DNA of 64,000 nt, taken from positions 558,001 to 622,000 of the forward strand of contig NC_016480.1 in the NCBI RefSeq assembly GCF_000227115.2. The letters run 5' to 3'. Every line of letters begins with the position of its first letter. The first letter of the stretch is position 1. Shown here in pieces: positions 53,035-59,249 of the stretch. Origin of the DNA: Naumovozyma dairenensis CBS 421 (taxonomy: Eukaryota; Ascomycota; Saccharomycetes; Saccharomycetales; Saccharomycetaceae). A program made the position numbers and the translations under genes. The notes under the pieces were generated by a model. That model saw nothing but the letters and a program-made list of their open reading frames with translations, was not told the DNA's origin and searched no databases.

Positions 53035-54675
53035 TCAATACATCTTTTTTGTTACCATCATCGCATCATGATTATTATCTACGAGTCCTTCATAAGCTTC
53101 CATTGAAGAAACATCATATGATTCTGAGAATATTAAAGTCTCGTTCGACGAATCTGTAACATCTTCATCTTCGTCAATTTCTTGAATATTATATTCTCCT
53201 TCTAACTGTGGTTCAACTAATTCGTAACCCTCTTTATCATCTTGAATTGAACATTTAACGTCACAAATTTGATGCACACCTAATTCTTCAAAATCAACAG
53301 TAATTAACCCATTAATATCATAACAATAGTCCATCATCATATTACTATTATTTTTCCTTCCTTCTGATTTACCCATTGAAGAATTTAGAATAAAATTACC
53401 ACATTCACTTACTTCTTCAGACTCATATGGTATATTCTCGTAGGATGGTAATATACCATATGATAAGACACATTTTTTCACTTTTTCTAAATGCTGTAAA
53501 TTCCAACTAATTAAATTATTGAATTCATCACAAGAATATAATTTCTTCTCAATGGAATCATACTTAATTGATGTAATAATACCAGTTTTAAAATGAGAAT
53601 TTGGTTCAATTTCACAAATAGTTTCACCATTAGTTTGTCTAATATCCCATACTTTAATTATACCATTATGACTTTGGAATAATTTTGTTTCGTCCATCCA
53701 TTCACAACTCTTTGAATTGATCGCACATCTTGTAACTGGTTCCATTACCTTTGGTGTGAATAAATTGTTACTAGTATGATTATCATTATCCTTACGAAGA
53801 TCTAATAAGGAAATACCAGCGTTATCGAAATCAGATCCACAAAGTGCCAAGACATCATCATGGTAAGGATTAATTGCAAACGATTCAATCATTGGGAAAT
53901 TTTGTAAAAATTTAGGGGTCTTATTTTCGTTTATGTCATAAATAAACATGGAATCATTAATTAATGATATAAATTCGTTAGAATTCTTGAATTTTAAGTT
54001 GCGAATTGGTTTCGATTCAAACTTGTTTAATATATTGTCTAATTGTGATTTATAACATCGTGATGTGCTCCCTCTTGATGATATACTAGTTAAATACTTG
54101 CTATGGTTAAACCGTTTTATTATCTTGGCATTCCCTTCAGTGAGTGATGTGGAGATTAAATTCACTTGTCCATCTTGATGACCTGTTAAAATGAACGGGC
54201 TTTCGTTATTGTGAGGTAATGATATCGTAGCTGAAGTGGTGATTGGTGTACCTGGTACGGTAATGGATTGTAATGTTTGCAGTTTTATTTTGTTTTCATT
54301 CACATCATTATTCATACTGTTCAGATTGTATAGTTTGAGATTATCTTTAGAATCACCATTTGAAAGTATAATTGTAGAATCATTGATTGATAACGAATTT
54401 GGTATAGTTTTATTGAAATTTTCATTCGTATTATGATTAATATTCCAATAACTTGATTTTAATTTTTTAGTCGTATAATAATCATTAAAATCACCTGAAA
54501 CTTTTCTTAAATTTGAGGATCCGCCCATTTTTGATGTATTTGTCTGCCATGATTTATTATATTGAAATTTGTTATGACCAATACCATTTTGATAAGTGGA
54601 GTTTCTAAAATTTTTTTTGATGTTAATTGCTGGTTGACGGAATATCGTTACCGGTTCGTAATATTCAGTATTCAT
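53035..54675 (-). CDS. DSE1: daughter-cell-specific WD-repeat protein Dse1
   Basis: The 546-residue protein starts with the recognisable YYEPVTIFRQPAINIKKNFR segment, near that of S. cerevisiae Dse1 (573). Beta-propeller-like WD repeats follow (for example the segments around ILTGHQDGQVNLIS, LALCGSDFDNAGISLLDLR and IIKVWDIRQTNG). An acidic C-terminal tail follows. Family knowledge: Dse1 is expressed in daughter cells under Ace2, localises to the bud neck region and affects cell separation and wall metabolism. It is convergent with YCK3, as in S. cerevisiae. Two Ace2/Swi5-type sites lie upstream. Confidence 0.88.
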   Translation of the reverse strand: MNTEYYEPVTIFRQPAINIKKNFRNSTYQNGIGHNKFQYNKSWQTNTSKMGGSSNLRKVSGDFNDYYTTKKLKSSYWNINHNTNENFNKTIPNSLSINDSTIILSNGDSKDNLKLYNLNSMNNDVNENKIKLQTLQSITVPGTPITTSATISLPHNNESPFILTGHQDGQVNLISTSLTEGNAKIIKRFNHSKYLTSISSRGSTSRCYKSQLDNILNKFESKPIRNLKFKNSNEFISLINDSMFIYDINENKTPKFLQNFPMIESFAINPYHDDVLALCGSDFDNAGISLLDLRKDNDNHTSNNLFTPKVMEPVTRCAINSKSCEWMDETKLFQSHNGIIKVWDIRQTNGETICEIEPNSHFKTGIITSIKYDSIEKKLYSCDEFNNLISWNLQHLEKVKKCVLSYGILPSYENIPYESEEVSECGNFILNSSMGKSEGRKNNSNMMMDYCYDINGLITVDFEELGVHQICDVKCSIQDDKEGYELVEPQLEGEYNIQEIDEDEDVTDSSNETLIFSESYDVSSMEAYEGLVDNNHDAMMVTKKMY

Positions 54676-54936
54676 ATTTTGTGGTATGTAGTTATTATTT
54701 CCGTGATAGTTGTATAATAAGGATTTAATCTTAATTTATTGCGTTTTTTGATTGAAATGGTAAGAATACTTTTGATAGTATAAAAGGGATTGTCTTGGGG
54801 AGATAATAATGAAAGATGCATAAGCCGGTTAAAGATTCCGACGGATTTAGTTCAAGCAATTCCAATAAGACTTTGCACCACCTCTTAAATATAGTTCATA
54901 AAAAAGGCAAGGCATGATAATGAACTTTCGAATGAA

Positions 54937-54990
54937 CAAAAACAAAACAAAACAAAACAAAACAAAACAAAACAAAACAAAACAAAACAA
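54937..54990. repeat. AAAAC pentanucleotide repeat
   Basis: About ten tandem AAAAC units, lying about 265-315 bases upstream of DSE1 and directly abutting an ACCAGC site. Confidence 0.9.
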
Positions 54991-54996
54991 CCAGCA
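54989..54996 (+). promoter_or_regulatory. Ace2/Swi5-type site upstream of DSE1
   Basis: AACCAGCA fits the Ace2/Swi5 consensus RACCAGCR. It lies about 315 bases upstream of DSE1, a known Ace2-driven daughter-specific gene. Confidence 0.6.
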
Positions 54997-55296
54997 ACAG
55001 CATTAATACTTAATTAACAACATTTTGCAAAAGATGTTATGTCAAACCACAAGGAGAGATGACCTTCTATATTTAGTAACAATGTTAATCCTGTTAATTG
55101 TTTTCTAGCAACAAGCAGAATAATTACTGGCTATAATATATTAGCGATACACACATTCTCTATGTATCAGATGTGTTTAGCATATCAACAGATCTACTCC
55201 TTCCATTAATTCTATTTGTGAACAAAACACCGAACTTGCAAAGCAAGGTATGCTATCGGTAAGTGATTGTTTACATATTTTGATATTTCATAAGAT

Positions 55297-55304
55297 TGCT
55301 GGTT
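55297..55304 (-). promoter_or_regulatory. second Ace2/Swi5-type site upstream of DSE1
   Basis: TGCTGGTT on the plus strand is AACCAGCA on the minus strand, the same 8-mer as at 54989 in inverted orientation, about 625 bases upstream of DSE1. Confidence 0.5.
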
Positions 55305-55628
55305 AGTTTTTTTGTTTTTGTTTTTGTTTTCTCAAATTTTCCACTGGGCGCTGTTGGGCGGCAAACAAATTGGGTAAAGAATAAATACTATCCGTCAATA
55401 ATATGACGGATGAATTATTTTTACAATTCGCCATAATCACGTGTTGTTTTATAACATTCACGATCTGTTGTCTAATTCTCGGGCTGGAAAATTCCTCTGG
55501 GACTTCTAAAAAAAAAGGGGTAAGAGCATTTAATAACTTTTCGAGAGACCTATTGTTTATCTAAGCAAAATCCTTTTTTTTATCAGGAAAGAGTTCAAAA
55601 AAAGGTATGTTTCATTCTAATGTGTGCC

Positions 55629-55958
55629 GGCCTATGCAGACATGGGAGGGATAGAAAATATTCTCTACCCCCCCAAAAATGGGCCTACCCCCACCCGTTT
55701 TTAACACCAAAATAAAAATTTCAACCCCTCCCCAACCCCCATTTATAGAATGTTGAATATGTCTAATATGGTCTCATTTACCTTAATTACTAGTCATCAT
55801 AAAAATATTGGTTATTTACCCCCAATTCTTCCCCCCAAGTTTTCTGTTCTACCCCCCTCTGTGCCGCAATTGGAGGCATTCTAGCCCAGCTTCTACCCCC
55901 GAAATTTTTTAATCCAACCCAATCCCCCTACCCAACCCTTTCCATGTCTGGGCCTATG
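55629..55958. repeat. 8-bp direct repeat flanking the hAT-like element (target-site duplication)
   Basis: GGCCTATG at 55629-55636 and again at 55951-55958, abutting both termini of the element exactly. Eight base pairs is the target-duplication length of the hAT superfamily. Confidence 0.8.
55637..55950. mobile_element. non-autonomous hAT-like DNA transposon (MITE), 314 bp
   Basis: The left end reads CAGACATGGGAGGG and the right end, on the other strand, reads CAGACATGGAAAGGG. The terminal inverted repeat is nine perfect bases (13 of the first 16 match) and begins with CAG, as is usual in hAT elements. A perfect 8-bp direct repeat flanks it. The interior has no coding capacity. It is strikingly C-rich on the plus strand, with five TACCCCC copies (55666, 55686, 55817, 55850, 55894) that resemble the repeated subterminal transposase-binding motifs of hAT elements. 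Family knowledge: hAT transposons are known in Saccharomycetaceae. The element is probably immobile without a transposase supplied elsewhere in the genome. It lies 962 bases from DSE1 and 1.4 kb from FET4. Confidence 0.75.
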
Positions 55959-57038
55959 TGGATCCTGAGGCAATTTAGTTCAAACTTGAAATTCCGTTTA
56001 AACGACTCGGGCGGAGGGAAGATGAGATAAAACCTTAAAAAACCTTTAAGAATCCCAATTTGTGCGCAATTTTCACTATAAGTTACAGGAGAGATATTTG
56101 GGACCAGGTTCTTTATTGCAGGTCTACGTAGAACAATATACAACGTCACTTTCAAGAAATATTACGTTACCACGATATTTTCAATATGTAAACTTTCCCT
56201 CTGTTGGATTGGGACAAGATTTACTGTCGAGTCAAATAGGTGCTTCTCGAGGAATAGTCATGTCTCTATCCCTAACGAATGAAAATATTATTCTATTGAA
56301 CATTACCTGTTGTCTTATACGTATGTTAAAATAATTGCGCGAATTTAACATGTTTTGGCAACTATGCCCTTTTTATTTCCTCTTTCTCGAAATATATTAA
56401 TAGTCAGATAATTGATACATTTCTTCATTGAACACGACGATGAACTTCGGTGTCTATGCGCCATTCCAAATGATTTCATTTTGGTATTTTTGCCTGATAT
56501 TGATGTATAACATTCTATATATATAAATATATATATATTTTAGGTATATTGGTATTCTTCCATAAAAACCAATCATTTCTAAAGAATTGTAAAAAGTACT
56601 GCTTTGGGTATAAGCTGTGCACTCACAAACTAAGTTTGACTTTCGACATTGAATCATACCCTACTGTTATAGCACTTTTCAATAGGGTCTAGAAGAACGT
56701 CCTAGACTTTATTAAAAAAGAGAAAAAGAGGTAAAGAAATATTTTAGGGAGCCTTAATAAACGGAATGATAAAAGTATTTTCAGTAAAATCTATAGGTCT
56801 TTGTATGTACACAGAATATTTACAGCTCACATATATCTACTTTACTTTCATTGGCCCATTAAAAAAAAAAAATTTCAATTCCCATTGGATATGATGTAAA
56901 TATTTTTCCGACCCTTAGTTTCCACTACATCTCATCTGAATCTTTGAGATCTCGGGTTTGTGTCGGATCAAACCGTTTTTCTTCGAAGGATCCAAAGTCA
57001 TTCGGCAAAGGAGTGCTACGTAACTTTGCTTTTATTTT

Positions 57039-57097
57039 CAGGAAATTGCACCTGGAAAAAAATTGCATACGTACATACTATGCAGGAAACTGCACCT
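57039..57097 (+). promoter_or_regulatory. duplicated 15-bp word upstream of FET4
   Basis: CAGGAAATTGCACCT (57039-57053) and CAGGAAACTGCACCT (57083-57097) match at 14 of 15 positions, about 280-335 bases upstream of FET4. The TGCACC core resembles part of the Aft1 iron-response core but lacks the third C of CACCC. The function is not established. Confidence 0.4.
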
Positions 57098-57374
57098 CAA
57101 TAGTCATCGTAACCGCTAGCAACACGAAAAATCCTTTACGAAATAAGATATCAAGTTTAGTTTTCTAACAACCATGAATATATTTAAATAATGATACATA
57201 GAGTCTAGTTTATTCTATTATTATCTTAATATATCTTTCTTAGTAAGCAAATAGGCAAATAAAAGCCCTTCCAGAGAAACGGTAGTACAACAAGTAGATC
57301 ACATCTTTGGCGCGTACGTAATTTTCATTTTATGGGACTTTGTATAACGAAAAAGGGAAATACAAAATAATATA

Positions 57375-59249
57375 ATGGGTAGAATTCTAGCATTTTTTGG
57401 GAATCCTGGTCAACGTCCAACGATCCATCATCGTGCACCATTACCAATTTCACACGAGTGTGGTTCTGATCTGGATCATGTATGCACTGTCGAAGAAGGA
57501 GAAGAAGAGGAAGTCATAACGATAATAGATGAAAATGGTGAAAAGAAAGAGACACTCAAGCAAGATTTGCGTGCCATTTCTTCGAACAGTGATCAATCAA
57601 CTGCTGTTGAATTGAGTGATATGAATATCGAATCTGATGGGTCAATTATAACAAGTCACGGGTTTACTGGTCTTAATAAAGGTTACACAGATAAGGTATT
57701 GGATATTTTAGTTGATTTCGCCGGTGGACAAATTGTGTTTTGTTGTGTATGGATAATTTTAATTATTTGGATTGTAATCGGTATAGTTTATAACGGTTCT
57801 TATGTATGGCAAGTGGTAATGCAAGATGGTCAATCTATTCAATGTTATATTTGGGATACTCTGCTGATGAGACAACAATTAACTAGTACCCATGAACAAG
57901 TTCTTGTCTGTTGCCAATTACGATCCCGTATGTCTACTTTCAAAGACTTTCTAACTAGAACTCTAAATGTGCACAACCATGATAAAGATGATACTAATAA
58001 TAACATACCATTATCATGCTCAGCATCTTCCATTACATCTAACAATTGTAACGAATCTAATGATAAGACGACACAGGACAAGAGTAAAATAAATGAAGAC
58101 AATGAATATTGTCAAGAAAAGAACGCTGAGACCCCAGAAAATAGTTTACCAGAGTCATCCGATGCTATTATAAATCCAGAGATGGACATGAAGACTATTG
58201 CAGGAGAATTACCAATTGAGAATTGGTATGACCGATTTTCATCAATTTCATCCAACATTATTGGTTCTGTACCATGTATGATATTATTCTGGCTTGGTAT
58301 TATCGTTTGGATTATTTGTGGTGTTATTCCAAAGGATGCAGGTAATAGCCCACCATACACTGGTAGAACCACTGGTAGTAATCCTAAATTGAAAAAATTT
58401 AGTGATGCATGGCAAATGTATATTAATACTGCTGTAGCTGTCTCATTATTAATTTGTACCACGTTTTTACAAAATATTAGAGCAAGACATGATAAATTTA
58501 TTGCTAAATTTCTAGTTAACACTTTTGAAATTGATGATAAGATTGATATTAGATTAAGAACATATTTTAAAGATTTCAGGCTCGCTAACCCAGTTATTAC
58601 CGTTCCACCAGGTAAAAGAACTTGGGGTGAGAAATGTATTGATTGGTATGCTGATATTATTGGTACAGGTATTGGTGTCATGCTTGCCATTGCATTTTTT
58701 GGTGTTTGGATTGGTATTGGTTCACCGTTACATTGGGATGATAATTGGTGGTTGATTATTGGGACTTATACTGGTCTGGTCGGATTTTTGGATGGCTACG
58801 TTATTCGACAAGTGTATTTTAGAATTATTGAGCATGAAGAAGAAAATTATTCCAAAGTAGCAGAACAGGATTTAGAACTGTTTCAAGTATTAGGCATTGA
58901 TTGTCCTGAAGAGTTTACTGGGAAACCTCAGGGTAACGTAACCAAGACTTTAAATTATAAAATATCTTCCTTCGTCAACAGAATATGTTCCGATCAATTG
59001 AGTGTTCTTGCATCAATTTTGATTATTATTGGTCTAATCTGTGTATCATCTGGTTTGCGCTGGAGTACCACAGGTCAATTAATTGCTAATACACCAACTA
59101 TGATTATTGAAGAATTCTTCTTAATTGTATTGCTTCAGGCACATAATTGGGCAGATCAACAACGAAGAGTTGAAGTATCGGCCTTGTTAGCAAGAAGACA
59201 AATTTTACTTGCATATGTTGAAAACCATTTCCCAGTAATTAAATATTAG
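57375..59249 (+). CDS. FET4: low-affinity iron/metal transporter Fet4
   Basis: The 624-residue membrane protein matches S. cerevisiae Fet4 (552) throughout. It begins MGRILAFFGNPGQRP...HHRAP, then HGFTGLNKGYTDKVLD, a first membrane segment at about 115-135 and the cytosolic stretch VVMQDGQSIQCYIWDTLLMRQQ. Five or so further membrane segments and the C-terminal LQAHNWADQQRRVEVSALLARR follow. Family knowledge: Fet4 takes up Fe(II), Zn, Cu and Mn across the plasma membrane with low affinity. It is longer because the N-terminal region and the first cytosolic loop (about 205-285, Asn/Ser/Glu-rich) are expanded. In S. cerevisiae FET4 is subtelomeric on chromosome XIII; here it sits between DSE1 and RSP5, which are adjacent in S. 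cerevisiae. Confidence 0.94.
   Translation: MGRILAFFGNPGQRPTIHHRAPLPISHECGSDLDHVCTVEEGEEEEVITIIDENGEKKETLKQDLRAISSNSDQSTAVELSDMNIESDGSIITSHGFTGLNKGYTDKVLDILVDFAGGQIVFCCVWIILIIWIVIGIVYNGSYVWQVVMQDGQSIQCYIWDTLLMRQQLTSTHEQVLVCCQLRSRMSTFKDFLTRTLNVHNHDKDDTNNNIPLSCSASSITSNNCNESNDKTTQDKSKINEDNEYCQEKNAETPENSLPESSDAIINPEMDMKTIAGELPIENWYDRFSSISSNIIGSVPCMILFWLGIIVWIICGVIPKDAGNSPPYTGRTTGSNPKLKKFSDAWQMYINTAVAVSLLICTTFLQNIRARHDKFIAKFLVNTFEIDDKIDIRLRTYFKDFRLANPVITVPPGKRTWGEKCIDWYADIIGTGIGVMLAIAFFGVWIGIGSPLHWDDNWWLIIGTYTGLVGFLDGYVIRQVYFRIIEHEEENYSKVAEQDLELFQVLGIDCPEEFTGKPQGNVTKTLNYKISSFVNRICSDQLSVLASILIIIGLICVSSGLRWSTTGQLIANTPTMIIEEFFLIVLLQAHNWADQQRRVEVSALLARRQILLAYVENHFPVIKY

Follow-up and report, generated by a model that had tools for sequence, protein, structure and literature searches.

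A miniature hAT-type transposon family, MITE1, in Naumovozyma dairenensis, with a probable decayed relative of its parent in the same genome

A 314-bp non-coding element lies between a 546-aa open reading frame (ORF) and a FET4-like gene in N. dairenensis CBS 421, and is almost certainly a non-autonomous transposon of the hAT superfamily (a MITE); that this miniature element shares its ancestry with a decayed transposase gene on contig C7 is, in our judgement, probable. Budding yeasts have few DNA transposons, and their MITEs are rarer still. N. dairenensis CBS 421 has an older family (MITE1, to which the element belongs), a younger one (MITE2) and a likely relative of the MITE1 parent together in one genome.

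The window element and the MITE1 family

The window is the whole 64-kb stretch of DNA analysed; the element and its surroundings are laid out in it as follows.

53035..54675 (−): flanking gene, ORF of 546 aa, called DSE1 in the original prediction, a name that is unconfirmed
55629..55636: left target-site duplication GGCCTATG, identical to 55951-55958
55637..55950 (+): MITE1 element, 314 bp, non-coding, assigned to non-autonomous hAT; at least 33 related loci genome-wide
55637..55645 (+): left terminal inverted repeat (TIR) CAGACATGG, perfect over 9 bp; the MITE1 consensus begins CAGACATGGGAGGGG
55648..55671: imperfect subterminal palindrome, read directly from the sequence, of putative function
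55666..55900 (+): five subterminal TACCCCC repeats, starting at 55666, 55686, 55817, 55850 and 55894
55942..55950 (−): right TIR CCATGTCTG, the exact inverse of the left 9 bp
55951..55958: right target-site duplication GGCCTATG, identical to 55629-55636
57375..59249 (+): flanking gene, FET4-like low-affinity iron permease, ORF of 624 aa (PF04120, E 5.7e-25)

The original prediction had described 9-bp inverted termini, CAGACATGG and CCATGTCTG, abutted on both sides by GGCCTATG, and this arrangement is exact; the TIR of this copy is perfect over those 9 bp and degenerate beyond them. Among all 9-bp inverted pairs no more than 2 kb apart in the whole 64-kb window, this copy alone had identical 8-bp outer flanks. 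The interior, predicted to be non-coding, is overlapped by no listed ORF of at least 150 aa, nor is any such ORF listed in the 2.7-kb gap (54676-57374) in which the element lies. The predicted concentration of C on the plus strand was likewise confirmed: the 314 bp contain 101 C, 35 G, 87 A and 91 T (GC skew −0.49), in intergenic surroundings of 18% C and 16% G, and all five TACCCCC repeats are on the plus strand, with no occurrence of the reverse complement. The naming of one neighbour as FET4 is consistent with its match to the Pfam family Iron_permease, while a Pfam search with the 546-aa ORF gave no match. A perfect AAAAC tandem array of 10.4 copies lies at 54939-54990, upstream of the DSE1-like gene.

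MITE1 is a dispersed family with common ends, many copies of which have their own 8-bp duplications. In the 13,527,580 bases (11 contigs) of the genome, a DNA search with the window element gave at least 34 matches, while patterns for the left end (25 bases) and the right end (23 bases), each allowing up to 3 mismatches, were found at 18 and 19 sites, respectively, and their reversed controls at none. A divergent MITE1 copy used as the query brought further loci. Merged by hand, these amount to at least 33 loci, of which 29 have body sequence and the other 4 come from the right-end pattern alone; the copy numbers for MITE1 and MITE2 are lower bounds. The 17 copies that were aligned to a consensus are 201-368 bp long; one copy, L051, has a run of N inside it in the assembly. 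In these 17 copies, TACCCC occurs 61 times on the plus and 7 times on the minus strand, and CTACCC 57 and 8 times; in their consensus, the position of the window palindrome is taken by a perfect palindrome, GGGGTAGAAAATATTTTCTACCCC.

Both ends could be called in 19 copies, with the duplication itself having helped in the calling of L030, L032 and C11b, whose ends are degenerate; the duplications were perfect in 6, had up to one mismatch in 12 and up to two in 13, compared with 0, 2 and 10, respectively, of 342 non-self pairings. For a stricter set, in which both ends had at most one mismatch to the 9-mer (n = 12), a hand count gave 7 duplications with up to one mismatch, 4 of them perfect. The six copies without a matching duplication as called were L010, L012, L014, L017, L018 and L019, of which L010 is flanked on both sides by TGTGCAAT, offset by one base; L033 is situated within a short TTGCCAG tandem. 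Queries made from the flanks of 7 of the 13 copies with joined flanks gave no junction-spanning hit in the same genome, and thus no paralogous empty site.

The identification as a hAT-type MITE is upheld by these dispersed copies with their own duplications and by the hAT transposase genes described below. The original prediction had pointed to further copies with different 8-bp flanks, which occur genome-wide, and to a hAT transposase linked to such ends, genes for which are present in the genome. Its suggestion that the insertion was fairly recent is unsupported, since the window copy differs from the MITE1 consensus by 9.6% over 312 sites; by simple arithmetic, all 16 duplication bases would stay intact at that divergence with a chance of about 20%. 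Divergence from the consensus was 5.0-12.2% in 11 of the 17 copies and 17.8-24.4% in the remaining 6, which are the shorter ones.

The sister family MITE2 and the RSF domain

A second family, MITE2, with ends CAGGCCTGGGACGG and a length of about 355 bp, was found adjoining a MITE1 copy on C1. This first MITE2 (354 bp) has the duplication ATCTCTAG on both sides, and at least 37 loci were obtained genome-wide (from 42 hand-merged alignments, with 40 of 55 candidates scored). In 10 fetched loci, the duplications were perfect in 6 and had up to one mismatch in 8, compared with 0 and 4 of 90 non-self pairings. MITE2 is the younger family, as its copies diverge by 2.3-4.5% from their own consensus (11 aligned copies), against 5-24% for MITE1 (17 copies). 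Words over-represented in the 11 copies include CAATCC; AATCCA occurs 70 times on the plus and 0 times on the minus strand, and ATCCTA 52 and 11 times. The consensus interiors of the two families align with a score of 8, compared with −40 ± 14 for dinucleotide shuffles, of which 0 of 300 were as good.

Three longer relatives of MITE2 were located.

C1:1704285-1708302: L057, 4.0 kb, with TIRs and a duplication, GTTGTCGC/GTTGTCGT, with one mismatch
C5: L059, with both ends in common with MITE2 and a perfect duplication
C8: L058, with both ends in common, no matching duplication and an internal run of N

Because the 354-bp MITE2 matches L057 at both ends (1-142 and 164-354), MITE2 is a product of internal deletion in an element of the 4.0-kb L057 type, a hAT whose transposase is now broken. 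The broken L057 gene matches the RSF family (PF14876, E 8.6e-8) at its N-terminus and, below threshold, a hAT C-terminus (E 0.01); hAT-type DxW, TTDN, CxxH and RW motifs and C-terminal dimerisation motifs were recognised by eye. The N-terminus of L061, on C10, also matches PF14876 (E 5.1e-11). A search with the pieced-together L057 protein (7993 candidates scored) gave a Maudiozyma exigua protein of 900 aa (34% over 94%, E 9e-119) and a 558-aa relative. The M. exigua homologue (P0001) is without CxxH, its histidine missing; a PDB sequence search with it gave no match at E up to 1, and its AlphaFold model (mean pLDDT 29.9) was too low in confidence for use on the RNase H-like fold.

PF14876 also defines two host RSF-family genes with open frames (L072, C4:542204-542782, and L073, C6:1103551-1104207; E about 1e-83), and it matches transposase N-termini in both hAT groups, above the cut-off on C10 and C3 and below it in four others. 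Six RSF-type sequences, when aligned, have invariant Q, C, H, L and H columns, hinting at a divergent BED-like finger; passages of Gordon et al. 2009 (PMC2675101) report such a finger as not findable and RSF1 as a domesticated hAT. It could be supposed that MITE1 and MITE2 spread ready-made sites (one-strand CTACCCC; AATCC/ATCCTA) that host RSF-domain proteins still read, so that the decayed pair would have left a network of scattered regulatory sites, some of them upstream of genes like FET4. We consider this a long shot. The idea of inherited binding sites is testable because MITE2 belongs to the lineage from which, on the account in those passages (PMC2675101), the yeast regulator Rsf1 also came.

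A further open frame of about 1170 aa on C1 (NDAI_0A07090; L043:4810-8328) resembles the hAT dimerisation domain weakly, at 21.8 bits. It matched no Pfam family at E 1e-3, and of 7981 scored candidates only the protein itself was related to it; a search around it for TIR pairs of the MITE1 type, flanked by matching sequence, gave none. It may be a domesticated hAT gene.

Copies of MITE1 and MITE2 are close neighbours more often than random placement gives: 5 of the 33 MITE1 loci are within 500 bp of a MITE2 locus, compared with a random mean of 0.18 and maximum of 3 in 2000 trials, in a model that is uniform along the genome and uncontrolled for gene density. A sixth case, on C6 and outside the 33-locus list, was found by BLAST. 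The side-by-side pairs are these.

C1:1313434-1314518
C5:1092951-1095136
C6:1020724-1021042
C9:8231-9388
C11:390625-391003
C11:690528-691156

On C1, the MITE2 is placed at the extreme end of a MITE1. The order on C5 is ATTGGGAC, hAT2 element, ATTGGGAC, MITE1, GTTGGGAC, an order in which the same 8-bp target seems to have served for two insertions. Of the 33 MITE1 loci, 2 also have a remnant of another set of hAT elements (group A) within 500 bp, at distances of 22 and 74 bp, compared with 0.07 on average and at most 2 under random placement.

Descent of MITE1 and rival readings

The M. exigua protein gave 24 matches in this genome (on C1, C10 and C7, and in smaller fragments). Two loci bear on the descent of MITE1.

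C7:535176-537355: decayed hAT transposase gene with several stops and a stretch of N
C9:8231-9016: longer MITE1 member, with MITE1 ends outside, a perfect duplication GGTAAAGG and sequence of the C7 3' UTR inside

By eye, the C7 gene has SDDW, TTDN, CLAH and RWH motifs and a C-terminal SERSF; its C-terminus scored 16.6 bits against Pfam Dimer_Tnp_hAT, below the 21.4-bit cut-off, and it had no listed match to RSF PF14876. It matches P0001 from residue 219 onward only. The gene represents a separate branch, its DNA having one 95-bp match to L057 and none to L061.

Pairwise, the C9 copy matches the C7 3' UTR at 541-604 (81.5%, E 1.6e-12) and 213-271 (78.7%, E 2.8e-9), and in a genome-wide search with this UTR, at E up to 0.001, it was the only match besides the UTR itself (E 1.9e-8 and 3.4e-5). 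A second long copy, L052 on C1, matches the UTR pairwise (E 5.8e-5) and is absent from the genome-wide result. The window copy is matched by the C9 copy at its two ends (1-126 and 130-314). As the window copy has no direct match to the C7 locus, its link to C7 passes through the C9 copy, and that on C1. The C7 locus ends with CCATGTCTG, 59 bases past the shared UTR, and has no recognisable left TIR, no matching duplication and no C-rich block at its right end; over 23 bases, its right end agrees with that of MITE1 at 12, compared with 13 of 23 at the best chance positions. Because these features are missing, the C7 gene is taken as likely to be a close relative of the MITE1 parent, perhaps not the parent itself.

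The insert of the C9 copy was also considered as a transposase remnant and rejected, since about 252 bp of it belong to a repeat that occurs at 33 other places, with 85-95% identity and sometimes only in part. This repeat, within the UTR piece, looks like a solo LTR, and its nesting makes the C9 copy older than the insertion of the repeat.

We propose that an autonomous C7-type hAT element lost its coding region through internal deletion and that a second deletion gave the 314-bp form. This form would have been moved in trans by the parent transposase, with the hairpin-forming excision and 8-bp staggered insertion usual for hAT elements, until the parent decayed; putative binding sites for the transposase are the CTACCCC repeats on one strand and the palindrome near the left end.

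A MITE mobilised by another hAT, since lost, would make C7 merely a cousin and the UTR in C9 captured sequence. The C7 element does lack a matching left TIR and C-rich ends, and the better-preserved transposases (L057 on C1 and L061 on C10) are of a sister lineage; however, the UTR segments are colinear near the right end in C9, and more weakly in C1, as parental deletion predicts, and we consider capture unlikely. Group A (L045-L050) was rejected as the parent on account of its different TIR, TAGCGTTGTTACGCGCC: in BLAST against eight hAT loci, the window element matched only the MITE1 copies inside L048 and L050, and the MITE1 consensus shared nothing longer than 18 bp with L045 and L049. Group A itself comprises deletion derivatives of about 715 bp with one common breakpoint and a 2.7-kb decayed copy, and gave no protein homologue at E 1e-3 among 5604 candidates.

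Membership of another superfamily with 8-bp duplications, for instance P-like or Mutator-like, is scarcely credible. Such a duplication is not by itself unique to hAT, but a CAG-type TIR is usual in hAT, that of MITE1 resembles the TIR of L057, which encodes a broken hAT transposase, and the MITE1 and MITE2 interiors align above all 300 shuffles. Less credible still is the idea that a C-rich regulatory or G-quadruplex block of the host has come by chance to look like a transposon: the strand bias of the window element is strong and 8 of 19 MITE1 copies contain a simple C-tract motif of four runs, but the copies are dispersed, with their own duplications, and the motif is missing from the other 11, on which ground MITE1 was rejected as a G-quadruplex element. 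A hAT MITE with probable C7-type ancestry is the reading that we retain.

MITE1 among known yeast hAT elements

As MITEs, intermediates and broken parents are kept in one genome, the conversion of an autonomous element into a MITE can be followed stepwise. Sarilar et al. 2015 reportedly recorded MITEs in Lachancea and, in N. dairenensis, remote copies of Rover. Judged by titles and abstract openings, the papers that literature searches listed did not deal with the MITE1 or MITE2 families, which the survey of Sarilar et al. 2015 may include.

As far as passages of the published accounts go, Rover elements with MITEs occur in Torulaspora (PMC6025943), Kazachstania saulgeensis has pseudogenes of Rover and Roamer (PMC5501885), Dekkera has a MITE (PMC4999066), and Rover and Roamer have no target preference (PMC6710886). 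The Rover MITEs of Lachancea and Torulaspora are described, like MITE1, as Saccharomycetaceae hAT MITEs beside intact or degenerate parents; MITE1 would differ from these in its TIR, interior and parents, the sister parent being Rsf1-related, but may itself belong to Rover or Roamer. The L057/L061 lineage, with its PF14876 N-terminus, resembles the hAT transposases of N. castellii and Vanderwaltozyma polyspora, which are about 900 aa long and Rsf1-like at the N-terminus; their genes, and not MITEs, are described in the passages concerned (PMC2675101). The C7 gene is without a listed RSF match. The Kluyveromyces lactis element between MATa1 and a2, handled by Kat1, is likewise reported in excerpts as a short element with TIRs, subterminal repeats and a hAT transposase, in which roles of CxxH and W are discussed (PMC4763223), but its TIR starts GTATAC and its TGAATT repeats change polarity between the ends, whereas the MITE1 repeats are on one strand throughout. 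Group A of the same genome, too, is a hAT with short derivatives, and its TIR differs. Yeast hAT MITEs are thus already known and MITE1 is a new family among them; what it adds to them is the bridging C9 copy, the one-strand subterminal repeats and the clustering of two families with apparent target-site reuse.
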